Assembly (NCBI GenBank): GCA_017549505.1
Contig: JAFYUS010000063.1
Coordinates: forward strand, 1 to 50,545
Direction: 5' to 3'
Length of the DNA: 50,545 nucleotides
Source of the DNA: Bacteroidales bacterium
GTDB taxonomy: Bacteria > Bacteroidota > Bacteroidia > Bacteroidales > UBA932
Part shown: in pieces, positions 2,057 through 19,858 of the stretch
Position numbering within the stretch: position 1 is the first letter of the stretch
Layout of the letters: each line of letters opens with the position of its first letter
The notes under the pieces: generated by a model
What the model was told of the DNA's origin: nothing
The model's input: the letters and a program-made list of their open reading frames with translations, nothing else
Database searches by the model: none
Position numbers and translations under genes: made by a program

Positions 2057-2083
2057 GTCTGTCAATTTTATTTTAGTCCAGGA

Positions 2084-3244: not shown

Positions 3245-3248
3245 ATGA

Positions 3249-4421
3249 TTACTTCTTCATCAAGGCTTCAATCTTCTTAGGCACATCGGTATTCTTCATA
3301 AGACCGGCAAAGTTCTCTGCTCCCGGTCCGTATGCGAAGATAGGAACAACTGTTCCTGTATGGCCTGAAGTGCTGAAATTGAGCTTTACAGGACCTTCAT
3401 TACCTGGCTTATGGCCGTTGTAGTAAACACCTGTTCCACCGGTCTCATGGTCAGCAGTAACGACGAGAAGTGTCTCAGGATTATTGTTCACATAGTCGAT
3501 CATATTCTGAAGAGTACGGTTGAACTCCTTCATCTCGACGATCATACCGTCTGAATCGTTGTTATGGCCATATCCGTCGATGATTGCGCTCTCGATCATA
3601 AGGAAGAAACCGTCCTTGTTGTTGCGTGAGAGGATATCAAGGGCCTTTACTGTAGCCTTCTCAAGGTAAACTGTAGGCTCAGAAAGATGGGTTGTATTTA
3701 CATCTTCATTGAGTGATGCGAGCTGAGCTGCAAGGCATACTTCCTGGCCTTCTGCTGCACTTGCTGTACCGTTGTTCTCCTCTCTTCTATGGAGGTCATA
3801 GAGAGGAAGGATACCTACGAACTTCTCTGAATCTGTACCAAGCACAGTCTCCCAGTTAAGGAAAACATCATAACCCTTCTCGATAAGAGTTGCTGTAAGG
3901 TCGAGAGAGTCAGGACGGGCGATGAAATGGTCAAGACCGCCACCGATAGCCACGTCAACATTGCTTTCTGTAAACTGCTTTGCGATATCGAATACCATCT
4001 TACGGCTTGTCACACCAGCATAGAAAGAAGCAGGAGTAGCTTCTGTAAGAGTTGTGTTTACTACAATACCTGTCTTCTTGCCCATCTCCTGAGCCTTGCG
4101 AAGAACGCTTGTAAGCTGATTCCCTTCAGGATCTGCGCCCACAAAACCATTATTAGTACGTGTGCCTGTAGCAAGAGCGGTACCGCCGGCAGCCGAGTCA
4201 GTCACATAGTTGTTCGCCGAACATGTCTCCGAAAGTCCGATTACAGGAGCCTGTTCGAAACCTGTCACCTCGTCCTCAGAAAGAAGAAGTGATGTAACTG
4301 CACCGAATCCCATACCGTCACCGATAAGATAGATCACATTCTTGACCTTTGGCTCATTGCAGCATGAAGTCGCAAGCACGAGTGCGAGCATTGCAACTGA
4401 AAATAAAGAAGTCTTTCTCAT
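3249..4421 (-). CDS. Alkaline phosphatase, lipoprotein (copy 1)
   Basis: A 390-residue PhoA-family phosphomonoesterase. The signal ends at Cys20 (LATSC). Metal site residue Asp35 lies in GDGMG and the nucleophile Ser76 in VTDSAAGG. Further metal ligands are seen in MIESAIIDGYGH (275-286), TADHETGG (322-329) and the SGHTG histidine near 353. Length is normal for the family. It is distinct from the second copy at 16510: this one has a lipid anchor and DHETGG, the other a cleavable signal and DHATGG. The gene sits downstream of a terminator-like hairpin at 4453-4480 and a TAnnTTTG box at 4480-4487, so it may be transcribed partly apart from susCD. Likely role: release of phosphate from the target glycan or its fragments. 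Confidence 0.9.
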   Translation of the reverse strand: MRKTSLFSVAMLALVLATSCCNEPKVKNVIYLIGDGMGFGAVTSLLLSEDEVTGFEQAPVIGLSETCSANNYVTDSAAGGTALATGTRTNNGFVGADPEGNQLTSVLRKAQEMGKKTGIVVNTTLTEATPASFYAGVTSRKMVFDIAKQFTESNVDVAIGGGLDHFIARPDSLDLTATLIEKGYDVFLNWETVLGTDSEKFVGILPLYDLHRREENNGTASAAEGQEVCLAAQLASLNEDVNTTHLSEPTVYLEKATVKALDILSRNNKDGFFLMIESAIIDGYGHNNDSDGMIVEMKEFNRTLQNMIDYVNNNPETLLVVTADHETGGTGVYYNGHKPGNEGPVKLNFSTSGHTGTVVPIFAYGPGAENFAGLMKNTDVPKKIEALMKK

Positions 4422-4521: not shown

Positions 4522-6375
4522 TTAGTTGACTGAGTCTACCTCGCAACGGATTGCCATTGCAGAACCCTTAGAATCGTATGATGTGCTCTTGCTGCTGATC
4601 TTGCTGTACTTAGCTACGCAGTAGTAACCGATCTCCTCATCTCTGATCTGGTGAGTTGAAGACCAGTAGAAACCATTATCAGCATCGCTTGAGCGGCTGC
4701 TGCTTGAATATTTCCAATATCCAGTGTATGGGAACCAGAAACCATTCGCTGTAATACCCTTATTGACATCATCAGCTTCTGCACCTTCTCCAAGGTCAGC
4801 AAAAAGAACCTGGCTTGAAGCGAATGACATAACCTTATATCCTGCTGGGCATGGGTCATAGATAGTCTTGGTTTCACCCCAAAGTCCAGCCTCTACAGTA
4901 AGGTCATCTGCCCAATGTCTATATCCATTATCCGGTGTATTTCCATAAAGGAATACTGTTGGATTAGCAATACCATACTCGATTGGCCAGTTTGTACCCT
5001 CAGCACTTCTTTCAACAGTAGTTGTTACGTCTGCCGGATAAGAAGTCATTGCAGTACCGGTATGAGTTCCGTCAAGACCCATTACAGGAGCGATACGGCC
5101 CCACTGCCAGAGAAGACCATAGTTAAGACCTGGCTTAGCCTTATCAGTTGTAAGGGCACCAAGGTTACGGTCCATGAACTGGTAACCGTCAACTTCGATA
5201 GTTCCGATCTTCTCCTCAACGAACCAGAGCATCCAGCTCCAGATGATAGTACCCTCAGCGTTCTTTACAGATACGAGAGCGTTACCGGCATGGAATGGAT
5301 CAGCAGCCTCAAAAACTACATAACCGTCCTCAAGAGCAACTGACTTTACAAGCGAGTTCTGAGTGACAGTCTCACTGTTACACCAAGTCTCCCAAGTAAC
5401 CTCAACAGATGCAGCGTCAAGACGTGCAGCACTGTCGTTACCCTTTACAGTCTCGAACTTATACTTACCTACTGCCTGAATCTGGTATGTGTTAGCATAT
5501 CCCTGAGCAGAGTTAAGGTTTACAGTCTGAGCTACAGGAACAACGTTCTGAGTCTCCATTGCAACTGTCTTACCAGCCTCTACAGTAAGGTTAGGGATAT
5601 TGATGTTTGCAAGAGGTGAGTTGTTTACGTCATAAAGAACCATCACACCACCTGTCTTGAAAGCACCTGCAGGAACCTCAACAGTGAAGTCAATTGCAGT
5701 TTCACCAAGCTCTACCTTCTCAGCAAGAACCATAGTAACCATGTTCTTTGAAGCAGCAGAGTTCTTGATAGCGAACTTTGTAGTCTTAGGGTTGTAAGTA
5801 ACGTTACCGTTAAGGATAGCCTTTGCATCATTGTCAGTAACCTCAACTTTAGCTACACCACCCTTACCTGTGAGAGGAATCTTCACAGCACCTGCAGCGC
5901 TCTTGAAAGTAAGGTTGGATGCATTCTCAGCATAAGCGAATACAGGAGCTGCCGCAGCCTGCTCTGCTTCCATTGTGTAAGCAAAAGTATTGTGCTGAGC
6001 GAAAGTCATGTCCTCATTGTAAGGATATGTTGCAAAATATCCTGTTGCATTGTCAGCAACTGCGCTTGCAGAAGGCACGAAAGTACCTGTCGCTGTGCCT
6101 GCACCTGCAGAAAGCACATATTTAGCAGCAACGTCAGCACCGTCAACGATAGCATATACGAGGATAGCGTCACCCTCTGCCCATACTGTCTTTACAGGAG
6201 AATTCTCGAGAGCAGCAGTGATAGTATCTACTGTACCACCTGTTGTCTCTCCACCTGGCTTCTGTTCCTCATTGCCGGTGTTTTCCTTGTTCTCTTCCTT
6301 TACAGGGTCCTTCTCACAAGACCATGAAAGCGTAAGAGCTGTCGCAATAGCGAGCATTGTAAACAATCTTTTCAT
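4522..6375 (-). CDS. Surface lipoprotein: fimbrillin-like domains plus C-terminal FISUMP domain
   Basis: A 617-residue protein in the position where SusE/SGBP glycan-binding lipoproteins usually lie, 45 bp after susD. The lipoprotein signal ends at Cys20 (LSWSC) and continues CEKDPVKEE, an acidic start compatible with surface export. Residues about 50-265 resemble Mfa/FimA-type fimbrillin domains (AEGDAILVYA, GYFATYPYN, and a VEVPAGAFKTGG strand). A second beta domain spans about 270-390. The C-terminal region (about 395-617) shows FISUMP features: FMDRNLGAL, LLWQWGR, YDPCPAGYKV, NGFYWSST and a final AIRCE. No enzyme motif is visible. Likely role is cell-surface glycan binding or adhesion for the adjacent SusCD transporter; the binding role is inferred from position. 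Confidence 0.75.
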   Translation of the reverse strand: MKRLFTMLAIATALTLSWSCEKDPVKEENKENTGNEEQKPGGETTGGTVDTITAALENSPVKTVWAEGDAILVYAIVDGADVAAKYVLSAGAGTATGTFVPSASAVADNATGYFATYPYNEDMTFAQHNTFAYTMEAEQAAAAPVFAYAENASNLTFKSAAGAVKIPLTGKGGVAKVEVTDNDAKAILNGNVTYNPKTTKFAIKNSAASKNMVTMVLAEKVELGETAIDFTVEVPAGAFKTGGVMVLYDVNNSPLANINIPNLTVEAGKTVAMETQNVVPVAQTVNLNSAQGYANTYQIQAVGKYKFETVKGNDSAARLDAASVEVTWETWCNSETVTQNSLVKSVALEDGYVVFEAADPFHAGNALVSVKNAEGTIIWSWMLWFVEEKIGTIEVDGYQFMDRNLGALTTDKAKPGLNYGLLWQWGRIAPVMGLDGTHTGTAMTSYPADVTTTVERSAEGTNWPIEYGIANPTVFLYGNTPDNGYRHWADDLTVEAGLWGETKTIYDPCPAGYKVMSFASSQVLFADLGEGAEADDVNKGITANGFWFPYTGYWKYSSSSRSSDADNGFYWSSTHQIRDEEIGYYCVAKYSKISSKSTSYDSKGSAMAIRCEVDSVN

Positions 6376-6420: not shown

Positions 6421-8277
6421 TTACCAGTTTACAGTCTGAGTAAGGGTATATCCTCTCATCTTGTAATCGTCGATCTGCTGCTGACCGATAGGTCTCATGT
6501 ATGAACGGTCGAAGAATGTCTCTCTGTTCACAGCGTTGCGCACGCAGTAGAATCCTTCCATCTCCTCAGGGTTGTTGCCTCTGTATGTGAAGATGTTACC
6601 GTCAGCATCCTGAACCTTGAGGACGTTGATCTTATCCTTCATGAATGTAGGTTCCTCAACAGCGAAGTTCACCCATGGTCCGAGATACTTGTCAGGATTT
6701 GTATCATAGTCCATATAGTCGAGCTTGTACCAGCGACGGAGGTCCTTGATACGGTTTCCTTCGTGGAAGAGCTCCATACGACGCTCACGACGGATCTCCC
6801 ACATGAGGGCGCTTACGTCACCGTCACGGTCTGGGTCGTCAGGAATTGCATTAAGATAGAGAGGAGCAGTCTTCTTTACACCGTACTTGGTTGCGTCAGC
6901 GTTAAGAGGACGATTACGGATAGCATTGATAGATGCATCGATATCGTCCTGGCTTACTGTACCGTGTCCCATCTCAGCGAGAACAGCCTTAGCCTCGATC
7001 CAGTTGAGGACAACCTCACCAAGACGCATGATAGGAGCGTCGTTGACGTTGAACATACCGTTCCAGTCAGGGTGCTTCTGGTTTGTCTCGAAATAGTAAT
7101 CAAGAGCCTCTCTTGCAGCGAACTTGTTGCAATAGATCATTGAAGAAGAGTGCTTGCTTACTCTGTGATAGAATGAATCGAAGAAACGTGGGTCACGTGT
7201 CAAAGAGAGATTAGCCATGGTGAGTGCAGTAGGATCGTCTGGATCAGCTACTGAAGACAGCTTCATAGGCTTACCGTCATTACAGTTGAATGCCTTGATG
7301 AACTCAAGGTTTACACCTGTCTGGCTTTCGCTACCACCTGTGTATGAACCGATGCAGTGGGTGATGCTGAGACCTGCGTCATAGTGACGGTACATGAGAA
7401 CCTCTGGGTTGCCCTTAAGGTCTGTAGATGCGAAGAGAGACTTGTAGTCGCTTTCGAATTTGTACTTCTTGCTCTGGATTACAAGGTCACCAGCCTCGAC
7501 AGCCATCTCGAGATACTTCTTTGCGTGCTCGTCATCGCAGAAATCCTCATACTGCTGTGCATGGTAGTACTGCCATGTACCTTCGTTGAGCATCATGCGT
7601 GAGATGAAACCTGCTGCAACGTATCTGTTGAGAGTGTTCTCACCGTCGTCTGTACGCATGTTGTCGAGGATGTAACGACACATGTCATATACCTTATCCA
7701 TAACGAACTGACGGTCATCACGGTCCTTGTACATTGTATCAGGATCGTCGTCACGAACAGTTGTCTCGAAATAAGGAACAGCACCGAATACGTTCACGAG
7801 GTCATAGTACTCATAAGCCTTGAAGAAGTATGCAACTGAAAGCCAGTGAGCATATTCCTCTTCTGTAAGGTTCTCCTTACCGTAAGTGGTCACGCGGTCG
7901 ATGAAGATGTTGGCCTTACGTACGCGGCCGAATCCCCATGATGGTCCATACCACTCTGAAGAGCAGCTGCGGCTCTCCGAGCTTGAACCTGAAGATGAAG
8001 GCACCTTGTTTGTGAAGGCGCTCTGCTTGCCCTCTGATACGAAGTCATCAGAGAAACCTGTACCACCGCGGACAGGAGCATAAGCCTGATCCCAGCCTAC
8101 GCCGTATCCCTCGAAATACGACGGATAGAAGCCGTTGGCAAAAAGCCTGAAGTCAGCCTCATTTCTCCAGTAGCCGTTGTCCACGACTTTGGTAAGGGTC
8201 GGCCTGTCAAGCAGATCGCTGCACGAGCAAGCCAGTACGAGGGCGAGGGTGAAATATAATATCTTTTTCATAATCAT
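6421..8277 (-). CDS. susD: SusD/RagB family nutrient-binding lipoprotein
   Basis: A 618-residue outer-membrane-anchored glycan-binding partner of SusC. The signal peptide ends in ACSC, with Cys19 followed by SDLLDRP, the usual SusD start. TPR-like helices are seen through the sequence (YFFKAYEYYDLVNVFGAVPYF, then RYVAAGFISRMMLNEG). The C-terminal SusD region has LGEVVLNWIEAKA, IRRERRMELFHEGNR and DLRRW, the strongest family signature. The ATG at 8277 lies 4 bp after the susC stop; an in-frame ATG at 8271 is an alternative start (MKKILYF). Together with SusC it should form the lidded transporter that captures oligosaccharides released by the locus enzymes. Confidence 0.95.
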   Translation of the reverse strand: MIMKKILYFTLALVLACSCSDLLDRPTLTKVVDNGYWRNEADFRLFANGFYPSYFEGYGVGWDQAYAPVRGGTGFSDDFVSEGKQSAFTNKVPSSSGSSSESRSCSSEWYGPSWGFGRVRKANIFIDRVTTYGKENLTEEEYAHWLSVAYFFKAYEYYDLVNVFGAVPYFETTVRDDDPDTMYKDRDDRQFVMDKVYDMCRYILDNMRTDDGENTLNRYVAAGFISRMMLNEGTWQYYHAQQYEDFCDDEHAKKYLEMAVEAGDLVIQSKKYKFESDYKSLFASTDLKGNPEVLMYRHYDAGLSITHCIGSYTGGSESQTGVNLEFIKAFNCNDGKPMKLSSVADPDDPTALTMANLSLTRDPRFFDSFYHRVSKHSSSMIYCNKFAAREALDYYFETNQKHPDWNGMFNVNDAPIMRLGEVVLNWIEAKAVLAEMGHGTVSQDDIDASINAIRNRPLNADATKYGVKKTAPLYLNAIPDDPDRDGDVSALMWEIRRERRMELFHEGNRIKDLRRWYKLDYMDYDTNPDKYLGPWVNFAVEEPTFMKDKINVLKVQDADGNIFTYRGNNPEEMEGFYCVRNAVNRETFFDRSYMRPIGQQQIDDYKMRGYTLTQTVNW

Positions 8278-8281
8278 GTTT

Positions 8282-11200
8282 TTAGAATGTTGCCTGAATA
8301 CCTACTGATACAGTCTTGAACACAGGAGTATTCAGACCGGTACGTCCCTGCGCGTAGTTGCTACCCCACATTGACACACCTGTTACACACTCTGGGTCGA
8401 TAGGGAGTCCACGGAGCTTGTCGAAAGTAAGGAGGTTCTCACCTGTGAAGTAGATTCGGAGGTTCTGGATCTGAGCCTTCTTTGTCCACTTTTCAGGAAG
8501 AGTATAACCTACTGTAAGGTTCTTGAGTCTGAGGTATGCCATGTTGAGGATATAACGGTCGTTCACCATCACGTTGTAACCGTCATTGCTCTTACCCATA
8601 CCATAAGCTGCAGGATAGAATGCGTCAGTGTTCTCAGGAGTCCAGTAGTCAGCTGCGAATGCGTTAGCCATCGCACCGTCGCCTGTATCCCAACCTGGGA
8701 TTGCGAGAGGACCGTTACCCCACATTTCACGCTTACCTACACCCTGGAAGAATACTGAAACGTCAACACCATGCCAGTCAGCACCGAGACGGAATGAGTA
8801 CTCGTAACGTGGAGTCTCGTCACCGATGATAGACCAGTCACCGTGGTCGTCAGTCTGCTTTGAGCCATAGGTCAGCTTGCCGTCTCCGTTGACATCCTTG
8901 TACTTCACGTCACCAGGACCGAAGAGGAATGAACCACCCTGGAAGTAAGCCTGGTAAACCGGCTTCTCACCGTTAGGACCCTTCTTGAGGATGTATGCGA
9001 ACTTGCCTACACATGCAGGGTCATCTGTATCAGCCTCAGTAAGCTGACGATAGATGAGGTCACCGTTCTCTGTAAGTTCGAAGTCGTCGTACTGGTAGAG
9101 TCTGTCAACCTGGAATCCCCAGATCTCACCATATCTCTTACCTACATACCAGCTTGAAAGGCTCTTAGTGTCACCATACTTCATGATGGTAGACTTGGCG
9201 TCAGCGATCATGAATGTACCGTTGATACCGAGGCCGTTAGCGAAGCGGTAGTTACCGTCGATAGCGAGCTCCCAACCGTTTGTACGGAGCGAACCGTGGT
9301 TGGCCTTAGGAGCTGAAGCACCGAATGTAGTTGTATTCACACCGTCGGTAGGAACGATCATCTGGTCAGTATCACGCTGGAACCAGTCGAATGTAACACC
9401 TACCTGGCTGTTGAAGAAACGCGCGTCGAAACCTGCGTCGAGAGTCTCGATTCTCTGCCATGTGATACCTGCAGAGACAGTCGAAGGAGTTCCTGCGTAG
9501 TTTGCAAGAGTGTTGTTGGCTGTGATCCACTCGTTCTGACCTGTAGAGATTGTAGGGATATAGAGTGAAGATGAAACCGACTGGTCACCTACAGAACCCC
9601 ATGATACTCTGGCCTTGAGGGTAGACACGTAAGGCTTTGCAAACTCCATCCAAGGCTCCTCGATGATTCTCCAACCTGCAGAGAATGATGGGAACCAAGC
9701 CCACTGGAGCTGCTTAGGGAACTTAGAAGAACCGTCACGACGGATGTTGGCCTCGAAGAGGTATCTGTCCTTGAAGTTGTAGTTGAAACGGCCGAAGAAA
9801 CCGAGCTGGCTGTCCCAGCTTGCAGAACCACCACCGGTCCATACGCCTGTACCGAAGTTGAACTGAGGGTTCTCGTAGTCAGAAAGGTTCATGACCTTTG
9901 TCTCCTGACTTGTCATATCATAAGTAGAAAGGTTCATACCGGCCATTACCTTGAACTCGTGTGCATCAGCAAGCTTAAGTGTATAGTCTGTAAATGCATT
10001 GAATGTATGGCGGTAGAAATTCTCATGAGTTCTTGCGAAATATCTGTTGTCAGATGTCGGCGGATAAGGATCAGAATATGGGAAATGGTATGCTACCATC
10101 GCATCCGGATCGCTTGAAGGAACTACCTTTCCGTCCCAGTTTACATAAACCTGGTTTCCGTTCTTGTCAATCATCTCGGTAGGAGACTCACGATAGTTCG
10201 CTCCTGAGAACTCACAACCTGGAAGAGTCATGATATAGTCCTGGTTTGTGTAGCTGTAGTCAGCGACGATGTTCCAGTTCTTAAGCGGAGTGATTGTTGT
10301 TCCGAGGTTGATGTTGGTGTAGTTGTATCTACGTGTGGCAGTGTTTGCCTGACGTGCCTCTGAAACAGGAGATCTGAGTTCGTGACCCATCTCGTCATAA
10401 CCGTAAGGCATGAGAGGTGACCAACGGTAGAGGTAGAGCCATGGAGAGTAAGAAGTATCGTCTGTGATGAACGGATAGTTCTTCTGACGCTGCGAGTAAA
10501 GCATTCCGCCGCGTACTGTGAGCCAGTCATTTACCTGAGTCTCGAGCTTTACAGATGCGTTGTACTTCTGGTGGCTGTCATCCTTTGCAGTCTTCATCAT
10601 ACCTGACTCATCGAGGTAGCTGAGACCTACATTGAATGTGGTATTGCCCTGACGGCCTGAGATAGTGGCATTGTGAGACTGGGTTGGAGTCCACTCTGCA
10701 ACCATGTACTCATAGATATTGTAAGTACGGATACCGTAGATCACACCACCGCTGTAATACCAGTCACGACCGTATACCATAGGATCGTCAGGTCCGATAG
10801 TGCTGCCATACTTCTTCTGCCACTCGTATGAACGTGCAATGGCATCCTGGTCTGTTCTGATGTAAGAAGCCACATAGATTCCATCATACGAATAAGCATG
10901 AGGACCGATAGGAAGACCGTTGTCAGTTGCATTCTGAGGGCTGAACTTAGAACGTGCAGAAGCGTCGAGCATGTACTGGAGACCGTTCACGCTTGCCATG
11001 TCATAGTCCTTCGCCATGTTCTGGAAAGAAACGAGGCCGCTGTAAGTCACTGAAATATTGTCAGTCTTTGCTCCTTTCTTGGTAGTGATGAGGATCACAC
11101 CGAACGCACCCTTTGAACCGTAGATTGAAGTCGAAGCAGCGTCCTTGAGGACTGAGATACTCTCGACGTCGTTAGGGTTAACGACCTGGATAGAAGGGAT

Positions 11201-11773
11201 TTCCACATTATCGAGGAGGATAAGCGGGCTTGAACCACCTTCGATGGATGCGATTGCACCACGGATCTTCATCTTAGGATCCGAACCGACCTCGGCATCA
11301 GGAAGGGTTACTGAAAGACCCGGAGCAGAACCCTGGAGACCACGTCCAACGTCTGGAATCGAACGTCCCTGAAGGCTCTTGTTCACATCGACAGTAGCCA
11401 CAGCACCTGTAAGGTTTGCCCTTGACTGCACAGCGTATCCCACTACGACTGCATCGTCGATCAGAGTTGTGTCATCTTCAAGAACGACATTGACAACCTG
11501 ACCAGGCTTTACTGTGATCGTCTTGGTCTTGTAACCAAGAGACGAGATGACGATGTTCTTTGTGGTAGGCTCAAGAGAGAAGTAACCTTCCTCATCTGTT
11601 GTCGCGAAGGCCTTCATGTCTTCGTCTGTGACAACAGCTCCGGCTACCGGTGCTCCATTGGCATCCTTGACGGTACCCTTGACTGCGTCAGCAGGTCCGC
11701 CAGCCGCCAATGCCATAGCAGCTGAAGCCACTACAAGCACCATCGTCAGGAAAAATTTAGAAATTCGTTTCAT
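8282..11773 (-). CDS. susC: SusC/RagA family TonB-dependent outer-membrane transporter
   Basis: A 1163-residue TonB-dependent importer. A signal peptide of about 24 residues (ALA-AGG) is followed by a carboxypeptidase-regulatory-like beta domain (about 30-100). The TonB-box region DDAVVVGY lies at 107-114, then the plug (about 115-235, with ISVLKDAAST and GVILITTKKG, the SusC plug signature) and a large 22-strand barrel to the C terminus (ending VGIQATF). Length and order are standard for SusC. It is transcribed after the GH2 gene with a 55-bp gap and directly before susD. It imports oligosaccharides into the periplasm using TonB/ExbBD energy. The oligosaccharide identity is inferred only from neighbouring enzymes (amino-sugar glycan). 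Confidence 0.96.
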   Translation of the reverse strand: MKRISKFFLTMVLVVASAAMALAAGGPADAVKGTVKDANGAPVAGAVVTDEDMKAFATTDEEGYFSLEPTTKNIVISSLGYKTKTITVKPGQVVNVVLEDDTTLIDDAVVVGYAVQSRANLTGAVATVDVNKSLQGRSIPDVGRGLQGSAPGLSVTLPDAEVGSDPKMKIRGAIASIEGGSSPLILLDNVEIPSIQVVNPNDVESISVLKDAASTSIYGSKGAFGVILITTKKGAKTDNISVTYSGLVSFQNMAKDYDMASVNGLQYMLDASARSKFSPQNATDNGLPIGPHAYSYDGIYVASYIRTDQDAIARSYEWQKKYGSTIGPDDPMVYGRDWYYSGGVIYGIRTYNIYEYMVAEWTPTQSHNATISGRQGNTTFNVGLSYLDESGMMKTAKDDSHQKYNASVKLETQVNDWLTVRGGMLYSQRQKNYPFITDDTSYSPWLYLYRWSPLMPYGYDEMGHELRSPVSEARQANTATRRYNYTNINLGTTITPLKNWNIVADYSYTNQDYIMTLPGCEFSGANYRESPTEMIDKNGNQVYVNWDGKVVPSSDPDAMVAYHFPYSDPYPPTSDNRYFARTHENFYRHTFNAFTDYTLKLADAHEFKVMAGMNLSTYDMTSQETKVMNLSDYENPQFNFGTGVWTGGGSASWDSQLGFFGRFNYNFKDRYLFEANIRRDGSSKFPKQLQWAWFPSFSAGWRIIEEPWMEFAKPYVSTLKARVSWGSVGDQSVSSSLYIPTISTGQNEWITANNTLANYAGTPSTVSAGITWQRIETLDAGFDARFFNSQVGVTFDWFQRDTDQMIVPTDGVNTTTFGASAPKANHGSLRTNGWELAIDGNYRFANGLGINGTFMIADAKSTIMKYGDTKSLSSWYVGKRYGEIWGFQVDRLYQYDDFELTENGDLIYRQLTEADTDDPACVGKFAYILKKGPNGEKPVYQAYFQGGSFLFGPGDVKYKDVNGDGKLTYGSKQTDDHGDWSIIGDETPRYEYSFRLGADWHGVDVSVFFQGVGKREMWGNGPLAIPGWDTGDGAMANAFAADYWTPENTDAFYPAAYGMGKSNDGYNVMVNDRYILNMAYLRLKNLTVGYTLPEKWTKKAQIQNLRIYFTGENLLTFDKLRGLPIDPECVTGVSMWGSNYAQGRTGLNTPVFKTVSVGIQATF

Positions 11774-11828
11774 TGATTTTTCTAGTTTGGTTAATAATTA
11801 TAAGGTATAGAAGTTTTTCTTGTGTTTC

Positions 11829-14357
11829 TTATTTATCGCCACATCCGCCGTCAACTTCGATCTTCACACCCTTGACACCGGCTGCGCAGCAGGTAACGGT
11901 CTTGGTCTGACCTGGGAAGAGAGGGAAGAAGTTGTCGCTCCAGTATGCAGGTACGACGAGGTTGCCGGCTGCATCCTTTGCCTTGAGGATGTTCATGAAT
12001 GAAATCACATCAGAATTGTTCACGAGAGTAACGGTGTACTTGCCATCCTTCTCCTCTACTGTCATCTGTACGTCTGCCTCAGGCTGAGCGAATGCGAAGC
12101 TGAGGTCAGTGTAATCTGTGATGAGAGTGTTGTACCATGTGAATTCCTTCCAGTCATATACGTTCGGCTTTGCTCCGATGCAGTAGAAGTTATCTGCCAC
12201 GAAGTTTCCTTCAGCATCCTTTACCTCAAGGGAGATGAAGTGTGAAACTCCCTGGAACCTGTTGAGGTCGAACGCCTTAGCGGTCTTACGGTATGAAGAT
12301 GCAAGAGTGCATGTGTCTTCGTAGAGAAGAGCTGACTTGCCGTCGTACACCTTTACTGAAACCTCATAGTTCTCCGCATCGAGACCTTCATTCACAAGGT
12401 AAACCATGTGGTCCTTGTAGTTGTAGATGAGCTGTACAGGCTCGCAAGCCTTTCTTGTTCCATAATATGCTGCACACGGAACTCCGTACCAGTCATACTG
12501 CTGCCAGTAGATTGAAGGCCAAGCTGAGTTGAGCATCCACTGGACGATACCTGTAGATACAGGAGTGTTCACACGGAATGCCTCGAACATTGCGCGGGTA
12601 GCGTCATAGTCAACGGCGTGTCCTTTTCTCACATAGTCGTTAAGGCACTCTGCCTCACCATAGACAGCGTTGATTGTCTTGGTGAGTTCATCCATCGAGT
12701 TCATTGCTGAACCGGAAGTTGTACAGTGACGGTCCCAATATTCGTTGATCGGCCAGAGCTTGTCCTCAGGAATCATCTTCTTGAGAGATTCGAGCTGAGG
12801 GATGTTTGCTCCGATACCTGTCTCCGTGTTGAATCCGAAGGCACCACCGTTGTCAGTATCAAGATACCAGTAGTCTGGTCCTACATATTCGTATGGTCCT
12901 GCCATCTTGCTGCCTGACCAGCCTGTGAGCTTGCTCTCAAGGCTCTTTGCAGAGCTGATGTACGGACGATAGTCGTACTTGGCATAAGTGTCGAGATAAC
13001 GCTGCTCAAGCTCTGGAGTAGGCACACAGTCGCTACCCGTCATCCAAGCGATTACAGAAGCGTGGTTGTGGAGTCTGATCACCTGATCCTCGAAATATCT
13101 TGCAGCAAGGTTGATTTCCTTAGGCTGGATGATACAGCCTACATGCTCTACTTCCGGAAGACCGCAGTAGTTCTCCCACTCCCACTGGCAGCTCCATCCT
13201 ACGAGAGCGAGCACACCGTGCCTGTCGCAAAGGTCATAGATGGTATCATCCTTACCCCAGATATTCTCGAAACGGATAAGGTTCATGTTCATATGCTTCA
13301 CGTACTCGACCTGTCTCTCAAGATCTGCCGGCTTGTCTCTGAGGAAGATGTCATCTGTCCAACCAGCTCCCTTGAGAAGGATATCCTTGCCGTTGAGGGT
13401 GAACTGTCTGTAGCCATATTCGTTAAGGTGGCTCTCGATCTTACGGATACCGAAAGTCACGTCCTTGACGTCAGAAACCTTTCCTTCAGAAGCGACCTGT
13501 ACATTGAGGTCGTAGAGCTCAGGAGTTCCGAGCTCCCAGCTCCACCATACGCGAGGGTTCTTCACATGGAGGTTTGCAGCCTGCTCAGGAGTAAGCACCA
13601 CTGTCTTTCTCTCGTTTGCCGCAAGCTCTACAGGAACTGTGCATGTCTCACCATCCTGGATAGCAAGAACGATATCAGCACAAACAGGAGCTGACGCCCT
13701 GTTCTTAAGGTCCACGCGTACTTCAAGGTCAGCCTCAGCGAAAGTCTCGACATCAAGATCAGGAATCACATATACATCCTCGATCGACACTGCATCGGAA
13801 GCGCAGAGCTTTACTGTCTGAGTTATACCCATGCTCTCGTCGAGAGGTCTTGGATTCCAGTCCACGAAACCGATGTTGAGGTCGCCCTTCTGAGCTCTAC
13901 GGATCCTTACTTCCACTTCATTCTTCTTCTGAAGAAGTCCGGTAACATCGTATGCTCTCTTGATGAACACGCCGTAGGTTGTATCCGAAGTCGCGATGCA
14001 TTCACCGTTGACAAAGATATCGGCATAGTAGTTCAGACCATTGAACACCAGCTCATAACGCTGTCCGTCAACCTTGTCAAGATTGAATGATGTCTTATAG
14101 ATCCATGTCTTGTCGAAGATGCTCTTGTCAACATCAAAATAGTTGAGACTGTTAAGAAGGTCTTCTCCAAGAACTCCCTGGTCACAGAGGACACCTGCAA
14201 CTGTAGAAGGAACCTCGACGTCATAATATGTCTCGGTACCTTCCTGATTGAGGGTCCATCTGTCAAGCGAATACTCGTCGCCGTTGTTCAGTACAACGGT
14301 CTGGGTGCAGGCGCAAAGGAGGCCTGCTGCCATGATCAGGTTAAAAGTTTTTTTCAT
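11829..14357 (-). CDS. GH2 exo-beta-D-glucosaminidase-like lipoprotein
   Basis: An 842-residue glycoside hydrolase. The signal ends at Cys17 (LLCAC). Sugar-binding and Ig-like GH2 domains fill about 45-310, the TIM barrel about 315-620 and further beta domains follow. The acid/base position reads GSD (441-443, Asp443) rather than the usual GNE. The nucleophile is expected at Glu512 in FNTETG. The Asp-to-Glu spacing of 69 and the GSD signature match CsxA-type exo-beta-D-glucosaminidases (catalytic Asp469 and Glu541), not beta-mannosidase or beta-galactosidase. Predicted reaction: removal of terminal GlcN from chitosan-like or deacetylated amino-sugar chains. It follows the ROK kinase by 10 bp and precedes susC, so it belongs to the core operon. 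Confidence 0.85.
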   Translation of the reverse strand: MKKTFNLIMAAGLLCACTQTVVLNNGDEYSLDRWTLNQEGTETYYDVEVPSTVAGVLCDQGVLGEDLLNSLNYFDVDKSIFDKTWIYKTSFNLDKVDGQRYELVFNGLNYYADIFVNGECIATSDTTYGVFIKRAYDVTGLLQKKNEVEVRIRRAQKGDLNIGFVDWNPRPLDESMGITQTVKLCASDAVSIEDVYVIPDLDVETFAEADLEVRVDLKNRASAPVCADIVLAIQDGETCTVPVELAANERKTVVLTPEQAANLHVKNPRVWWSWELGTPELYDLNVQVASEGKVSDVKDVTFGIRKIESHLNEYGYRQFTLNGKDILLKGAGWTDDIFLRDKPADLERQVEYVKHMNMNLIRFENIWGKDDTIYDLCDRHGVLALVGWSCQWEWENYCGLPEVEHVGCIIQPKEINLAARYFEDQVIRLHNHASVIAWMTGSDCVPTPELEQRYLDTYAKYDYRPYISSAKSLESKLTGWSGSKMAGPYEYVGPDYWYLDTDNGGAFGFNTETGIGANIPQLESLKKMIPEDKLWPINEYWDRHCTTSGSAMNSMDELTKTINAVYGEAECLNDYVRKGHAVDYDATRAMFEAFRVNTPVSTGIVQWMLNSAWPSIYWQQYDWYGVPCAAYYGTRKACEPVQLIYNYKDHMVYLVNEGLDAENYEVSVKVYDGKSALLYEDTCTLASSYRKTAKAFDLNRFQGVSHFISLEVKDAEGNFVADNFYCIGAKPNVYDWKEFTWYNTLITDYTDLSFAFAQPEADVQMTVEEKDGKYTVTLVNNSDVISFMNILKAKDAAGNLVVPAYWSDNFFPLFPGQTKTVTCCAAGVKGVKIEVDGGCGDK

Positions 14358-14367
14358 TATATAGAAG

Positions 14368-15195
14368 TTAGATTAAAGATGCACCTATGATCGGGATTTC
14401 ACCGCTGGTACGTATATCGACCTGAAGCCTGTCGAAATTGCTTCTGAACGGGAATTTACTCTTTATATATTCCTCCATGGTACCACGGAAAAGAGGCAAG
14501 GCGTTGGCGATACCACCTCCGAATACAATATGGCTTGGATCGTATGCATACATCAGGATCATGATGGCATGACCGAGATTTTTACCGAATTCATTGAAGA
14601 TTCCGATGGCCTCCGCATCACCTTCATTTGCTGCTGCAGCTACTTCATGAGCCTTTACTCCAAGCTTGTCGAAATACTGTCGGCTGCAGTATTCCTCCAG
14701 ACAGCCATCCTTATAATCGAGGTAACCGAGTTCTCCGGCTCCGCAGTTGACGCCACAGATAAGACGACCATGGTCCACAACACCGATACCGATACCTGTT
14801 CCAAGAGTCACGGTAACCAGGGTCTCCGGCTTTGCATCAGCCGGATACGTACCGTATGCACCCATGGCATAACAGTTAGCATCGTTATTTACATCTGCAG
14901 GAACGCCAAAACGCTCTTCAAGAAAAGCCTTAAGATGGACTTCCTTCCAAGAAGGAATGTTTGCGGCATCATAGACGATACCTTTATTCACGTCCACAAC
15001 CGAAGGGACGCCTATTCCGATTTTTGTCACCTCTGGTGACATGAGATTCGAAATCTGCTCTGCCAGATATTCAAGGGTTTCTTCCATTGTTGCGGAAGGG
15101 GCGAATGACGGAACCGAAACAGTCTTTACGACAACACCGTTGTCGACCAGACCTATACAGAGGTTGGTTCCTCCAAGATCTACTCCGAGTATCAT
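14368..15195 (-). CDS. ROK-family sugar kinase
   Basis: A 275-residue cytoplasmic kinase with ATP-binding DLGGTN (6-11), the catalytic aspartate in NNDAN (Asp105), and GTGIGIG (132-138). ROK family members phosphorylate glucose, GlcNAc, GlcN, mannose or fructose. The usual EXGH motif reads ELGY (155-158) and the CXCGXXGC zinc cluster is reduced to a single GC (164-165), so the structural zinc site appears lost. Given GH18, GH2 glucosaminidase and GH20 in the same locus, GlcNAc or GlcN is the most plausible substrate (inference). It is the first gene of the main operon, with its ATG about 20 nt from the predicted transcript start. Confidence 0.88.
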   Translation of the reverse strand: MILGVDLGGTNLCIGLVDNGVVVKTVSVPSFAPSATMEETLEYLAEQISNLMSPEVTKIGIGVPSVVDVNKGIVYDAANIPSWKEVHLKAFLEERFGVPADVNNDANCYAMGAYGTYPADAKPETLVTVTLGTGIGIGVVDHGRLICGVNCGAGELGYLDYKDGCLEEYCSRQYFDKLGVKAHEVAAAANEGDAEAIGIFNEFGKNLGHAIMILMYAYDPSHIVFGGGIANALPLFRGTMEEYIKSKFPFRSNFDRLQVDIRTSGEIPIIGASLI

Positions 15196-15220: not shown

Positions 15221-15228
15221 CAAAAGTA
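15221..15228 (-). promoter_or_regulatory. -7 promoter box (TACTTTTG) of the kinase-GH2-susCD operon
   Basis: TACTTTTG on the minus strand fits TAnnTTTG, 25 bp upstream of the ROK start codon. There is no TTG at the usual -33 distance, as expected for an activator-dependent promoter. The direct-repeat operator starts exactly 28 bp upstream of this box (15257). Confidence 0.7.
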
Positions 15229-15256
15229 TTAATTATAACAGCCTAGGAGATATTGA

Positions 15257-15283
15257 TTTGCGTATTTGTATACGCCATTTGCG
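15257..15283. promoter_or_regulatory. Operator 1: direct repeat TTTGCG with 21-bp period
   Basis: TTTGCG occurs at 15257-15262 and 15278-15283, one 21-bp period apart. Between the repeats this site shares further bases with operator 2 at 19832-19858, including ATTT immediately after the first half-site. A 21-bp direct repeat is the classical spacing for AraC/XylR-type regulators, and the XylR-like gene is adjacent. Confidence 0.7.
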
Positions 15284-15344
15284 CAGAACGATAAACCGTT
15301 TATATTTTTTTTAGATATTTGCCTTCAGAACTACATAAAAGTCT

Positions 15345-16508
15345 ATGCTTAAGCTTCTTTTCATATCAGAATTCTCCGAGTCCTTTACAAACAAAGTTCT
15401 GAAAGGCATCGTAAATTACTCCAGCCATAGAGGCCAATGGTCCATATGCCGGATGCCTTCCCACTACAAGAACACTGTGGGAATCGAAGGCGTTCTCAAA
15501 TGGGCGAAAGGCTGGGGAACCAATGCTGTCATCGGAACATTCGAAAACAAGGATGAGGTATGTGCGCTCAAGAACGAAGGCATAGCTGTCGTCGCTCAGG
15601 ACTACAAGAAAAGATTTGACAACGTTCCTAACCTTACAGCAGATTACATAGGTACCGGACGCATGGCGGCCAGTTATTTCATCGACAGAGGATTCCAGAA
15701 TTTCGCTTTCTTCGGTCTTAACGACGTATGCTGGTCAGACGAAAGATGCGAGGGTTTCAGAAAGGAAGTGGAGGAAAACGGCTTCGGCAGGACATTCTTT
15801 GAATACATACTTCAGGACATCAATCACTTTTGGTTCTATGAAGCCAAAAGCCTTTCAGAATGGCTCAAAGGCCTTCCGAAACCTATTGGTATCATGACTT
15901 GCGATGACAATCAGGGCAGCCTTCTGATCGAGGCTTGCCGATCTGCGGGAATTCACATTCCTTCTGAAGTATCCATAATCGGAGTAGACAATGATGAACT
16001 TATCTGCAACCTAGGTACAACCACCTTGTCAAGCATCGCGATCAACATCGAAGAAGGCGGTTACCAGACTGCACAGATGATCGAAAGGATGGTAAAGGAT
16101 CCTGATTTTGTAGCGAAAGACATCGTTCTGAGACCGATCAAGATAGTGGAGAGAATTTCTACTGCCGCTTTTGCTACCACAGACAAGGAAATACAGAAGG
16201 CGGTCATGTATATACACCATAACCGCCATAAGAAGATTTCTGTAAAGGATGTCGTTGCAAGTGTGGCTCTTTCACGCAGACTTCTGGAAGTCCGCTTCAA
16301 GGATGTCACCGGACAGAGCATCTATCAGTACATCGCAGACCTCAAGATAAGGACTTTTGCCGAGATGCTTCTCGAAACAGATGACCAGGTCATCAATATA
16401 GCCTTGTCCCTCGGAGAAAACGATGCTAAAAGCATCTCCAAGAGATTCAAGGCTACATATGGCTGCTCCCCTAACGAATGGAGGAGCAGACATGCGAAAA
16501 AGGACTGA
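15345..16508 (+). CDS. XylR-like transcriptional regulator (LacI-type sensor plus AraC HTH)
   Basis: A 387-residue cytoplasmic regulator with no signal or membrane segment. Residues about 1-270 form a periplasmic-binding-protein-like sensor (LLFISEF at the N terminus, IGTGRMAASYFIDRGF, IMTCDDNQG, SEVSIIGVDND). Residues about 285-383 form an AraC-type double HTH ending in FKATYGCSPNEWRS. Size and layout match E. coli XylR. It is transcribed divergently from the ROK operon and overlaps no gene. Its 3' end lies one base from the convergent alkaline phosphatase gene. Likely role is activation of the two minus-strand units in response to an amino sugar. The binding sites are proposed at 15257-15283 and 19832-19858. 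Confidence 0.9.
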   Translation: MLKLLFISEFSESFTNKVLKGIVNYSSHRGQWSICRMPSHYKNTVGIEGVLKWAKGWGTNAVIGTFENKDEVCALKNEGIAVVAQDYKKRFDNVPNLTADYIGTGRMAASYFIDRGFQNFAFFGLNDVCWSDERCEGFRKEVEENGFGRTFFEYILQDINHFWFYEAKSLSEWLKGLPKPIGIMTCDDNQGSLLIEACRSAGIHIPSEVSIIGVDNDELICNLGTTTLSSIAINIEEGGYQTAQMIERMVKDPDFVAKDIVLRPIKIVERISTAAFATTDKEIQKAVMYIHHNRHKKISVKDVVASVALSRRLLEVRFKDVTGQSIYQYIADLKIRTFAEMLLETDDQVINIALSLGENDAKSISKRFKATYGCSPNEWRSRHAKKD

Positions 16509-16509
16509 T

Positions 16510-17667
16510 TTATTTTATCAGCGCTCTGATCTTATCTGAAAGTTCAGTATTCTCGTATACTCCCACAAAGTCCTCTGAGTGAGGTCCCCATGCGAATACC
16601 GGGAGAGCTATACCGTTATGTCCTGTGGTCGAGAAGTTCACACGTATCCTCTTCTCATCTATACCACCGCTCAGGAGTGTCATTCCGCCTGTAGCGTGGT
16701 CACCTGTAACGACTACCAGAGTCTCACCGTCTTTTGCTGCCCATTCGAGGACCAGACCTATGGTCTTGTCAAAATCGAAGATCTCCTCCATTGTATGGCC
16801 AGCTTTGTTGTCATGTCCACCGTCATCGATCATCGAGCCTTCTACCATGAGGAAGAATCCCTTCTTATTGTCAAGAAGTTCAAGAGCCTTTGTCACGGAA
16901 GCAGGGAGAATGTCGCCACGGTCGAGAGAAGGCTTGAGTTCATAACTGTCCATGAGAGCGATTACCGGTCCTTCCTCAACAGCCATGAGGTCTTCCTTGG
17001 TCCTTACATATGTATAGCCGTCTGCCTTGACTTCCTCAGCAATGTTTCTTCCGTCCTCTCTTTCTTCCCAGAACTTTGTACCGCCACCTGAAAGGAAATA
17101 GACTCCGCTGGAAGCCATCTGAGCAACTATATCTTCCTGATTCTTACGGGTTTCCGAGTGGCTGAAGAAGACGGCTGGAGTTGCATCGTTGACACGGCAG
17201 GTCACGGCAGCGCCTGCTCTCTTGCCCTTCTCCATAGCCTCTTCCGCGAGAGTCTTTACAGCAACTGTATCTGCATTCATACCCACCATGCCGTTATTGG
17301 TCTTATGGCCGGTCGAGAGCGCCGTACCTGCTGCAGCAGAGTCTGTCACAAGCTTGTTTGCAGAATAAGTTCTCTGAATACCTACCTTCGAGAAATTATC
17401 AAGATTAAGCTTGCCGCCGTTGCATACCCATGCAGCACTGATCTGTTCCAGACCCATACCGTCACCGATCATGAAGATGATGTTCTTTACCTTCTTTCCC
17501 TTCGGCTCCTGTACTGATACAGTCTCGTAAGGATTAAGCATAGTGTACTTGTCGTCTTCCGCGAAGTTGTTCACCGCGTACTTCGACCTGTCTCTATCCA
17601 CAACCTGGGCATTTGCAAGATATGCAAAGCCCAGGAGGATAGCCATTATTGTCAATGACTTTTTCAT
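16510..17667 (-). CDS. Alkaline phosphatase, periplasmic (copy 2)
   Basis: A 385-residue PhoA-family phosphatase with a cleavable signal (ANA-QVVD, cut near residue 20) instead of a lipid anchor. The metal-site aspartate lies in MIGDGMG (66-72). The nucleophile is Ser110 in VTDSAAAG. Later metal ligands lie in MVEGSMIDDGGHDN, TGDHATGG and the TGHNG segment. It has an N-terminal extension of about 55 residues before the core compared with copy 1. It follows the GH20 gene by 17 bp in the same transcript. Its stop is one base from the convergent XylR-like gene. It probably removes phosphate from glycan fragments in the periplasm. Confidence 0.9.
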   Translation of the reverse strand: MKKSLTIMAILLGFAYLANAQVVDRDRSKYAVNNFAEDDKYTMLNPYETVSVQEPKGKKVKNIIFMIGDGMGLEQISAAWVCNGGKLNLDNFSKVGIQRTYSANKLVTDSAAAGTALSTGHKTNNGMVGMNADTVAVKTLAEEAMEKGKRAGAAVTCRVNDATPAVFFSHSETRKNQEDIVAQMASSGVYFLSGGGTKFWEEREDGRNIAEEVKADGYTYVRTKEDLMAVEEGPVIALMDSYELKPSLDRGDILPASVTKALELLDNKKGFFLMVEGSMIDDGGHDNKAGHTMEEIFDFDKTIGLVLEWAAKDGETLVVVTGDHATGGMTLLSGGIDEKRIRVNFSTTGHNGIALPVFAWGPHSEDFVGVYENTELSDKIRALIK

Positions 17668-17684
17668 AATAACATTACTGATTA

Positions 17685-19766
17685 TTAATTCTTTCTCTGA
17701 CGATATACCACGCCTTCAGCCTCATAGTAAGGCATCTCGTGGTCTACTACTGTGCTGTAGTACCTGTCAAGCTCGGTCATGAAAGCAGGATCGTCGGCAA
17801 CTGTTGTTCCTTCCCATGAAGGACTTGCATTCCATGCCCTTTCAAACACGCCGCAGACCTTAGGGAATACATAAGAAGTCACATGGTCAAAAGATCTTAC
17901 CGTCTCCGTCCAAAGCTGAGCCTGAACACCTATGATGTTCTGCTTTGCCACGAGAGGGGTCTTGCCCTCAGGAAGTTTTTCAATGTTACGGATTCTACCC
18001 TTGTCGTCCCAACGTACTGAACGGTAGATATCAAAAGGAAGTAGCGAGAAGCTGCGGCGTTCGTCCACGAATCCTCCCCATGAAAGACCACGCTCCGTCT
18101 TGTCAGGGGTATATGCAAAGTCAACGTATGTGTTGGTCATGTTAGAAAGCACTGCAGGTACACCGTCGTTCGCATACTTGTATGGGAACTCTTCATTTCC
18201 TGTACCTGTGTGCCAGAAGTTTACAGAATAGAGGTTCTTCTTCATCCTCTCATATACATGGTCCTCGAGGTCCATCACGAGTTCCTGCCATCCTGAGATC
18301 TTCACGCCTCTTGATTCAGCTATATCAAGTACGTTCTCGATATAGTATGACTTGAGAAGCTCGATGTTGTCCCATCCGCGCTCAGCCATGATCTTCTGGC
18401 AAGGCTCAGAACCCACCCATGCACCATGCGGAACCTCGTCACCACCAACGTGGATCGCAGGAATCGGAGCACCTGCTTCCTTGTGGTAAGCGATAAGCTG
18501 GTCGAATACGACCTCGATGAACTTATATGTGGAAGGAAGAGCCACGTTAAGAGCATTGTCCTTGTAATACTGTACAGAGCAGTACTCGGACTTGTCTTCA
18601 GGATCGCTGAGAAGGTAGCTGTTGTCACCTGTGCGCTCAGCGTATGCCTGCATTGCCTTGATGGCGGCACGTGAGTGGCCTGGAGTATCGAACTCAGGGA
18701 TGACTGTGATACGACGCTCCCACGCATATTTCACGATCTCCACATATTCGGCAGCTGTAAGATGACCGTTAGCGGAAGAGGTCAGATCCTTCGGATCGAC
18801 ACTTCCGTTGTATGAAGGAAGAAGATAATTTGTCTCGGTATAGTTTCCGTTCTCGTCCTTGTATGGGAACTCATGGTATGCTCCGTAGGTCGTGAGCTCA
18901 GGGAACTGCGGGATCTCGACTCTCCAGCCTTCGTCGTCGCCGAAGTGGAGATGGAATACGCTTGCCTTGTAGTGGGCAAGGAGATCGATGAACTTGAGGA
19001 TATTGTCCTTGTTGGTGAAGTTTCTTGAGATGTCGAGCATGAAGCCTCTGTAACCGAAGTCAGGCCAGTCCTCGATGACGAGGTTAGGAAGTTCGTTTCC
19101 ACCTGCGTTTCTCTTGAGGTTCTCAAGAGTCACCTTAGCGTACTGTGCTCCGTCCTCATCAGCAGCCTGAACCTTGCACTCTCCGTCAAGGACGATCTTG
19201 TACCAGCCGGCCTTGCATGAAGGTACGATCTCAACCTCAGGCATCTGAGCCACAGTTGTGGTTCCCTCTGCAGGAGTTACGCTCTTAAGAGAAGGTATCA
19301 TATCCCATACCTCAGTCTTTACATGATTGTAAGGAAAGTCAGGAATGGATTCCGAAGGTAGGAATTCAAACTCGGCATCAAGAGCGACAACCTTACCGTC
19401 TTTTTCGACAGCAAAACCTTCAGGTGCCCAGCAATGGCGCTGAAGAGGCCTGTCGGTATATCTGATGACAAGATCCTTTCCCTCACGCTCCATCGGAGTA
19501 ACCTTATAGTAACATCCATGGAAAAGTTCGATGGAACCTTCGGCATCAACCAGCTTTCCTGGAGTTATATGGTTTGAAGTAAGCCACAGGGTCCAGTCGG
19601 TTCCTTCAGGAGCATTCAGTACAGTAAGAGTATGTACGGCCAGGCCAGTCTCAGGATCTGTTTCACCCTCAGTCCAGACAACGCTAGGCTTATTTGCACA
19701 GCTTACAGTAAAAAGAAGGCCGAAAATCAGGCAGAATGTCTGCAAAAGAAATGGTTTTCCTTTCAT
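17685..19766 (-). CDS. GH20 beta-N-acetylhexosaminidase lipoprotein
   Basis: A 693-residue enzyme. The signal ends at Cys23 (FTVSC). An N-terminal beta region (about 28-235) precedes the GH20 barrel, which starts with YRGFMLDISRNF. FHLHFGDDEGW (271-281), PEFDTPGHS (357-365) and the catalytic pair Asp443-Glu444 in HVGGDEVPHGAW are all present. Late aromatic substrate residues follow (ISGWQE, AQLWTETVR). It releases terminal GlcNAc/GalNAc by substrate-assisted catalysis. It is the first gene of the GH20-phosphatase unit. Its promoter carries the same operator arrangement as the kinase operon, implying co-regulation with susCD. Confidence 0.95.
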   Translation of the reverse strand: MKGKPFLLQTFCLIFGLLFTVSCANKPSVVWTEGETDPETGLAVHTLTVLNAPEGTDWTLWLTSNHITPGKLVDAEGSIELFHGCYYKVTPMEREGKDLVIRYTDRPLQRHCWAPEGFAVEKDGKVVALDAEFEFLPSESIPDFPYNHVKTEVWDMIPSLKSVTPAEGTTTVAQMPEVEIVPSCKAGWYKIVLDGECKVQAADEDGAQYAKVTLENLKRNAGGNELPNLVIEDWPDFGYRGFMLDISRNFTNKDNILKFIDLLAHYKASVFHLHFGDDEGWRVEIPQFPELTTYGAYHEFPYKDENGNYTETNYLLPSYNGSVDPKDLTSSANGHLTAAEYVEIVKYAWERRITVIPEFDTPGHSRAAIKAMQAYAERTGDNSYLLSDPEDKSEYCSVQYYKDNALNVALPSTYKFIEVVFDQLIAYHKEAGAPIPAIHVGGDEVPHGAWVGSEPCQKIMAERGWDNIELLKSYYIENVLDIAESRGVKISGWQELVMDLEDHVYERMKKNLYSVNFWHTGTGNEEFPYKYANDGVPAVLSNMTNTYVDFAYTPDKTERGLSWGGFVDERRSFSLLPFDIYRSVRWDDKGRIRNIEKLPEGKTPLVAKQNIIGVQAQLWTETVRSFDHVTSYVFPKVCGVFERAWNASPSWEGTTVADDPAFMTELDRYYSTVVDHEMPYYEAEGVVYRQRKN

Positions 19767-19795
19767 AAGTGGTCAGTATTTAATAAGTGCTGTCG

Positions 19796-19803
19796 CAAAA
19801 ATA
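19796..19803 (-). promoter_or_regulatory. -7 promoter box (TATTTTTG) of GH20-phosphatase unit
   Basis: TATTTTTG on the minus strand fits TAnnTTTG and lies 29 bp upstream of the GH20 start. No -33 TTG is present. The operator begins exactly 28 bp upstream (19832), the same distance as in the kinase operon promoter. Confidence 0.7.
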
Positions 19804-19831
19804 ACATTTTGCCCTGAAACACACATAGTAT

Positions 19832-19858
19832 TTTGCGCATTTAAACACCTTATTTGCG
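19832..19858. promoter_or_regulatory. Operator 2: direct repeat TTTGCG with 21-bp period
   Basis: TTTGCG at 19832-19837 and 19853-19858, 21 bp apart. The orientation relative to the downstream gene is the same as in operator 1 at 15257-15283. Both half-sites match exactly, and intervening bases ATTT and A-C at the centre also agree. Confidence 0.7.

Follow-up and report, generated by a model that had tools for sequence, protein, structure and literature searches.

Paired 21-bp direct repeats as probable operators of a XylR-type regulator of a putative amino-sugar regulon in a Bacteroidales bacterium

Among the closest described systems are regulators of sugar use from Vibrio and Bacteroides. 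In Vibrio, the XylR homologue XylRA activates a xylan locus via direct repeats with xylose as effector, electrophoretic mobility shift assay and isothermal titration calorimetry being reported in that source (PMC12125979). In Bacteroides, the sites of hybrid two-component systems (HTCS) are predicted direct repeats lying on average 21 bp apart, and the regulator of N-acetylglucosamine (GlcNAc) use is NanR, a ROK-family protein predicted to govern sialic acid and GlcNAc, the name XylR being given in that source to a member of the NrtR family (PMC3878776). The present study analyzes a stretch of 50,545 nucleotides from a Bacteroidales bacterium (assembly GCA_017549505.1, contig JAFYUS010000063.1, positions 1 to 50,545, hereafter the window) in which a direct repeat of 21-bp period occurs upstream of two gene units, with a gene for a XylR-like sugar regulator beside one of the copies. 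The repeats are very probably the docking site of this neighboring regulator, and the whole reading, that they are operators through which a XylR-type protein activates an amino-sugar regulon and stands in for a missing -33 promoter element, is given a probability of roughly 0.84. The kind of system is known; new here is this regulon, with its unusually clean geometry. No description of it was detected by title or abstract opening among the literature matches listed, supplements, RegPrecise and subscription journals being outside that scope.

The consensus housekeeping promoter of Bacteroidota consists of a TAnnTTTG -7 box and a TTG -33 box about 19–21 bp upstream. Both window sites have the first element and lack the second. 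Operator 1 (15257..15283, minus strand) lies upstream of the gene for a ROK-family sugar kinase (14368..15195, minus strand), and operator 2 (19832..19858, minus strand) lies upstream of the gene for a GH20 glycoside hydrolase (GH) (17685..19766, minus strand). Each consists of two CGCAAA half-sites with a 21-bp period, seen on the plus strand as TTTGCG (15257 and 15278 for operator 1, 19832 and 19853 for operator 2), and each points at its minus-strand gene, with starts at 15195 and 19766, respectively. The -7 boxes, TACTTTTG for the ROK promoter (15221..15228, minus strand, read 15228-15221) and TATTTTTG for the GH20 promoter (19796..19803, minus strand, read 19803-19796), are each separated from their operator by exactly 28 bases (15229-15256 and 19804-19831), and neither 28-bp spacer contains a TTG. 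An earlier, sequence-only reading of this DNA had claimed the doubled TTTGCG with its 21-bp period, the identical 28-bp distance and orientation relative to the gene at both promoters, and the lack of a -33 TTG, and the coordinates agree with it on all of these points. In the window there were two exact matches to TTTGCG-N15-TTTGCG against 0.11 expected, the chance rate allowing up to one mismatch, and these are the sole exact copies in the whole assembly (2,127,352 bases in 69 contigs, 78% complete). When one mismatch was allowed, the assembly contained 10 matches (2 exact and 8 with one mismatch) vs. 6 for a reversed-pattern control.

The regulator gene (15345..16508, plus strand) lies next to operator 1 and encodes 387 aa, with an N-terminal LacI-type sensor of the periplasmic binding protein (PBP) kind (PF13377, residues 110–273) and a C-terminal AraC helix-turn-helix (HTH) (PF12833, residues 305–382, and PF00165) in one chain. 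As the sequence-only reading had it, this is a XylR-like protein: the match to E. coli XylR is nearly full-length, with residues 12–382 of 387 aligned (4fe4, E 4.7e-38; 4fe4 and 4fe7 both about 5e-38). The one-chain sensor and HTH, this homology and a putative operator that is a direct repeat of 21-bp period are the marks of a XylR-type one-component regulator. Only PBP and HTH families were matched in the 387 aa, where an HTCS would have sensor, histidine kinase and receiver. Linkage to xylose genes, as for E. coli XylR proper, was not found among the annotated neighbors and targets, which are GH18, GH20, GH2 glucosaminidase-like, ROK and SusCD genes and, in two relatives, NagB. The 21-bp spacing also has a parallel in E. 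coli. Between xylA and xylF, among periods 17–25, the best direct repeat was at 21 bp (12/17 matches) and the next at 25 bp (11/17), and the former may be the XylR site. Residues 310–318 (SRRLLEVRF) are taken as the first recognition helix; eight of these nine positions are 90–100% conserved, with V316 at 49%.

A protein scan of a genome contig collection with the regulator found no relative, and relatives were taken from genome searches. A first search (E ≤ 1e-60) found the regulator in 23 of 101 genomes and a second (E ≤ 1e-95) in 92 of 400 same-genus genomes, one genome per species, the genome of the window included in both, with 95 copies in the latter, 93 of them usable (one had an internal stop and one was a short match). 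For scanning there were 94 sequences, 1.49 Mb in all, namely the window and 93 other loci around copies of the second search (loci of relatives carry an L label below). Twelve training sites, both window sites among them, all picked with 28-bp spacing and mostly linked to the regulator, yielded two models, a 31-bp weight matrix of the operator only and a 65-position model that covers the spacer and the box as well. The motif common to the relatives is longer than the TTTGCG pair, about TGCGCAAATTGnGAGTATAAATACGCAAATT when read in the ROK direction. On its own assembly the 65-position model scored the window sites at E 3e-11 and 6e-10, with the next best match at 0.33, both window sites being in the training set.

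The distance from operator to box is nearly fixed among the relatives. There were 114 non-overlapping operator matches (matrix score ≥ 18). The box stood 28 bp away from 85 of them, 29 bp from 19 and 27 bp from 4, and the remaining offsets between 0 and 62 held 3 boxes altogether. With the training sites removed, the box was at 28 bp, 29 bp, 27 bp or absent in 73, 19, 4 and 6 of 102 matches, so that 96/102 were at 27–29 bp. Within the 12 training sites operator and box were conserved and the spacer sequence hardly at all, which suggests that the spacer is kept for its length. A TTG at a gap of 19–21 bp before the box occurred in one of the 108 boxed sites, against 37 TTG over the nine gaps of 10–18. 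In the first 15 loci (L036-L050), ROK or GH2 homologues adjoin the regulator in 13, in variable gene order, with the regulator instead between a GH18 homologue and PheS in L040 and L041; exact TTTGCG-N15-TTTGCG was present in 6 of the 15 and degenerate sites in more. The arrangement of the window with its two operators (operator-GH20-phosphatase, regulator, operator-ROK-GH2-SusC) is shared by at least L113, where the spacings are 29 and 28, and operators linked to GH20 occur also in L113 and L180. Second copies of the regulator, 43–44% identical, are found in L042 (14125-14245) and L050 (3375-3495) with a different repeat upstream of ROK, which contains TGCAAGTnATTAATCCGCAAATTGC and has half-sites that, read by eye, are apparently 22 bp apart.

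Lack of conservation in homologous loci had been set beforehand as a possible refutation. The motif was conserved: 86 of the 93 regulator copies have a boxed operator (score ≥ 13 with the box at 27–29 bp) no more than 3 kb away. Strong sites (65-position model, E ≤ 1e-4) were found in 74 of the 400 genomes, and the regulator is present in 71 of these 74, compared with 92/400 overall, with 305 genomes having neither. An alternative explanation could be that another AraC-type protein, for example an HTCS, binds the repeats and that the XylR-like gene is a bystander. The predicted HTCS motifs are likewise direct repeats averaging 21 bp apart (PMC3878776), and near HTCS-type genes in this genus, too, strong repeats most often have a period of 21 bp: in 20 stretches around such sensor genes (L197-L216), period 21 occurred at 7 of 65 intergenic TAnnTTTG boxes (≥10/14 matches), two of the seven being one place on opposite strands, compared with 0–2 at 14 other periods. 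No fixed repeat-to-box distance was found in these 20 stretches, and a universal rule reaching beyond this regulator is not shown. In addition, three of the 74 genomes with a strong site have no regulator at E ≤ 1e-95, one of them carrying a 40%-identical homologue beside the site. That another protein is the binder is nonetheless very improbable in light of the 71/74 co-occurrence, of only two Y_Y_Y (HTCS-type sensor) matches in the genome of the window, both on other contigs, and of the observation that operator divergence tracks the DNA-binding domain of the regulator (partial r 0.37 between operator distance and domain distance, corrected for the sensor, a value reached by 0 of 500 permutations). 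None of the 10 loci of XylR-like homologues with 31–38% identity had an operator match with a box, and a simple repeat search of the loci of 10 more distant XylR-like homologues gave 3 hits, none at period 21, with no 21-bp/28-bp architecture.

Sites away from the regulator were represented by 16 stretches, chosen for sites on another contig or 25–30 kb away or for genomes without the regulator. Twelve of the 16 keep a site with the box at 27–29 bp, the spacing not being independent here since the model contains it. Eleven of these 12 precede homologues of genes of the locus, and the twelfth runs off its contig. The targets include a GH20-phosphatase unit (77% and 85% identity), ROK-phosphatase, ROK-GH2-phosphatase, SusCD, SusC and a ROK/GH2 pair, and in five of the 11 only relatives of a 617-aa protein of the locus were downstream (best stretches 32–42% identical), three of them also with a phytase-like domain. 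Across all 114 operator matches, the nearest recognized downstream gene on the same strand within 700 bp was ROK in 62, GH2 in 16, GH18 (p333) in 8, SusC in 8, GH20 in 3, and others or none in 17. In two relatives (L036, whose site is in the training set, and L102), the gene behind an operator lying 4–5 kb from the regulator encodes a fusion of glucosamine-6-phosphate deaminase and PIG-L (NagB/PIG-L), and in L036 a second deaminase gene comes next. The prediction of a single amino-sugar regulon gains support because this gene sits behind the operator in two relatives, and support comes also from the GH20, ROK, GH2 and SusCD homologues behind sites that are distant from the regulator or not linked to it. 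By homology, then, the targets (ROK kinase, exo-glucosaminidase-like GH2, GH18, GH20, SusCD and, in two relatives, NagB/PIG-L) support a putative amino-sugar regulon of the chitin or chitosan type.

We infer a mechanism in which a dimer of the regulator would bind the two same-facing CGCAAA half-sites, 21 bp or two helical turns apart. The half-site nearer the promoter would end 28 bp upstream of TAnnTTTG and the second HTH would cover the usual place of -33, such that the regulator may replace the missing -33 contact and recruit RNA polymerase once an amino sugar, possibly glucosamine (GlcN), GlcNAc or a short chito-oligomer, fills the LacI-type sensor. One regulon, serving the use of a GlcNAc/GlcN polymer, would then be switched on, with SusCD, GH18, GH20 and the GH2 exo-glucosaminidase for capture and hydrolysis and ROK for phosphorylation. 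If the first base of the TAnnTTTG box is some 12 bp upstream of the start point and an AraC-type half-site spans 17 bp, the proximal CGCAAA would lie near -46 to -41, with its half-site reaching about -30. Same-facing half-sites, a near-fixed distance to the box and the lack of a -33 element suggest an activator next to or over -33, and the geometry appears compatible with class II activators of the AraC family, in which the proximal half-site lies over -35/-33 with a sigma contact. It could instead be that the regulator binds the sites and mainly represses, or activates one promoter and represses its own, with the sugar releasing it. The sensor domain is of LacI type. There are also 29 divergent loci whose operator points toward the GH20-regulator genes as well, and 24 of them have [TC]AnnTTTG exactly 31 bp away, which makes autorepression plausible. 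A repressor, though, needs no fixed distance, and the 27–29 bp in 108/114 sites, the upstream position and the single TTG at the 19–21 gap in 108 fit an activator; E. coli XylR and Vibrio XylRA are also described as activators (PMC12125979). Repression is thus an unlikely main role, and activation is preferred.

The far-side box of the divergent loci is mostly CATCTTTG or CATATTTG (e.g. L036 6795-6935), and in the window the only counterpart upstream of the regulator itself is GATATTTG, which lies roughly 30 bp away from the operator. A more far-reaching form of the activator reading, which we offer tentatively and consider somewhat doubtful, is that these sites constitute a strict class of activator-dependent promoter (21-bp repeat, 28-bp spacer and TAnnTTTG without -33) at which an AraC-fold dimer physically replaces -33, and that in many species of the genus the operator works in two directions, toward kinase or SusCD genes at 28 bp and toward the GH20-regulator genes via a weaker CAnnTTTG at 31 bp. 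If true, such a two-way operator would wire the supply of the regulator itself to the same switch.

Several observations weigh against activation of an amino-sugar regulon by this protein through these sites. Six of the 114 operator matches had no box between 20 and 36 bp, and for 7 of the 93 regulator copies no operator with a box, however weak, was present within 3 kb. Among the 92 genomes with the regulator, 21 had no strong model match and 6 had no match at E ≤ 0.05. At that threshold the model matched 155 of the 400 genomes. The regulator is present in 86 of these and missing from 69, for which the nominal E-value would allow about 20; the model E-values are rough, and matches in the 69 (three of which are strong) were inspected singly only where they fell inside fetched loci. 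These weak matches may belong to other AraC-type regulators, or the calibration may be poor. The co-occurrence counts are raised by synteny, by shared ancestry and by training on 12 mostly linked sites of 28-bp spacing. Taken whole, the DNA-binding domain is not more conserved than the sensor (both 0.66). No NagB/PIG-L homologue was found in the assembly of the window, in a search without a positive control. Finally, the regulator stop codon lies inside the operator in 46 of the 114 sites, so that part of the operator conservation could be coding, and the repeats might even be chance, or conserved merely as the C-terminus of the regulator or as a syntenic block. Neither window site overlaps the regulator gene, however, 68 of the 114 sites do not contain the stop codon, and the 12 of 16 far or unlinked stretches keep both sequence and spacing. 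Chance or background is rejected in view of the window expectation of 0.11, the assembly-wide counts, the model E-values and the distribution of box spacings, and we consider chance, coding and synteny together the most improbable of the explanations. Where the overlap occurs, the stop codon is 17 bases into the operator in 35 of 46 (e.g. L045 9282-9312 and L047 4212-4242), and the last residues of the regulator (LRKLGV and alike) are encoded by the operator of the next gene.

The genes behind the two operators are all on the minus strand. Unit 1 begins with the ROK gene and continues with a GH2 exo-beta-D-glucosaminidase-like enzyme (11829..14357; PF18368; 2vzs, 1.5e-118), a SusC-like TonB-dependent transporter (8282..11773; TIGR04056), a SusD-like lipoprotein (6421..8277; PF07980), the 617-aa protein (4522..6375; no Pfam or NCBIfam match at E ≤ 0.001), an alkaline phosphatase (3249..4421; PF00245), a tyrosine-phosphatase-type protein (2084..3244; PF13350), an SdiA-regulated or phytase-like protein (1217..2065; PF06977, PF13449) and a GH18 chitinase-like enzyme (181..1182; PF00704; 5gzu, 1.2e-87). 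From its position the 617-aa protein is possibly a surface glycan-binding protein. Unit 2 consists of the GH20 chitobiase-like beta-hexosaminidase (PF00728; 9joq, 2.8e-86; 1qba, 7.7e-67) and a second alkaline phosphatase (16510..17667; PF00245). Each unit is probably one operon because the gaps between its genes are short. The components of a chitin or chitosan locus of SusCD type, namely GH18, GH20, SusCD and exo-glucosaminidase, are all present by homology, and the locus is read on that basis as a putative GlcNAc/GlcN polymer utilization locus of the chitin or chitosan type. Degradation of N-glycans was considered for the combination of GH18, GH20 and GH2; chitin or chitosan is preferred because GH2 strongly favors exo-glucosaminidase (1.5e-118) over beta-mannosidase (1.4e-28) and the first matches of GH18 are chitinases. 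Phosphatases are numerous in the locus, with two alkaline phosphatases, the tyrosine-phosphatase type and the phytase-like protein (window 1217-4421 and 16510-17667), and L036 adds a histidine-phosphatase fusion (10194-12125); it is possible that these serve a phosphorylated glycan or phosphate harvest. In L183 and L185 a single frame of 709 aa holds both GH18 and the tyrosine-phosphatase-type protein, downstream of an operator match that has no TAnnTTTG box.

The pair of regulator and operator described here has an exact geometry that is kept across dozens of genomes within a single genus, and suggests that these SusCD-bearing bacteria may switch on amino-sugar scavenging of the chitin type via a one-component switch rather than a membrane sensor kinase. 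To our knowledge the positioning of activators at TAnnTTTG promoters is still poorly known, and these loci form a natural series in which to study how an activator takes the place of -33. Compared with described systems, the chitin utilization locus of Flavobacterium johnsoniae is alike in its GH18, GH20 and SusCD-type genes but is controlled by the two-component pair CusS/CusR (PMC5127042); in the main text of that source, "glucosaminidase" (at word start) and "AraC" each have 0 occurrences. NanR of Bacteroides is likewise a predicted regulator of GlcNAc-related catabolism (PMC3878776) but belongs to another protein family, and the ROK protein here is kinase-like and a target, not the regulator. 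The HTCS regulons of Bacteroides share the AraC-type HTH, predicted direct repeats averaging 21 bp apart and the polysaccharide loci (PMC3878776), but their regulators carry a membrane sensor kinase, whereas here there is a 387-aa PBP and HTH protein. The Vibrio XylRA regulon is alike in its XylR-type regulator, in serving a whole polysaccharide locus and in its direct-repeat sites, which here are putative, and differs in its xylose/xylan substrate, in its host among the Gammaproteobacteria and in ABC/MFS transport rather than SusCD (PMC12125979). With E. coli XylR (4fe4, 4fe7) the regulator has in common its two-domain build, over the aligned residues 12–382, and differs in amino-sugar rather than xylose targets, in the CGCAAA half-site and in a TAnnTTTG promoter without -33.

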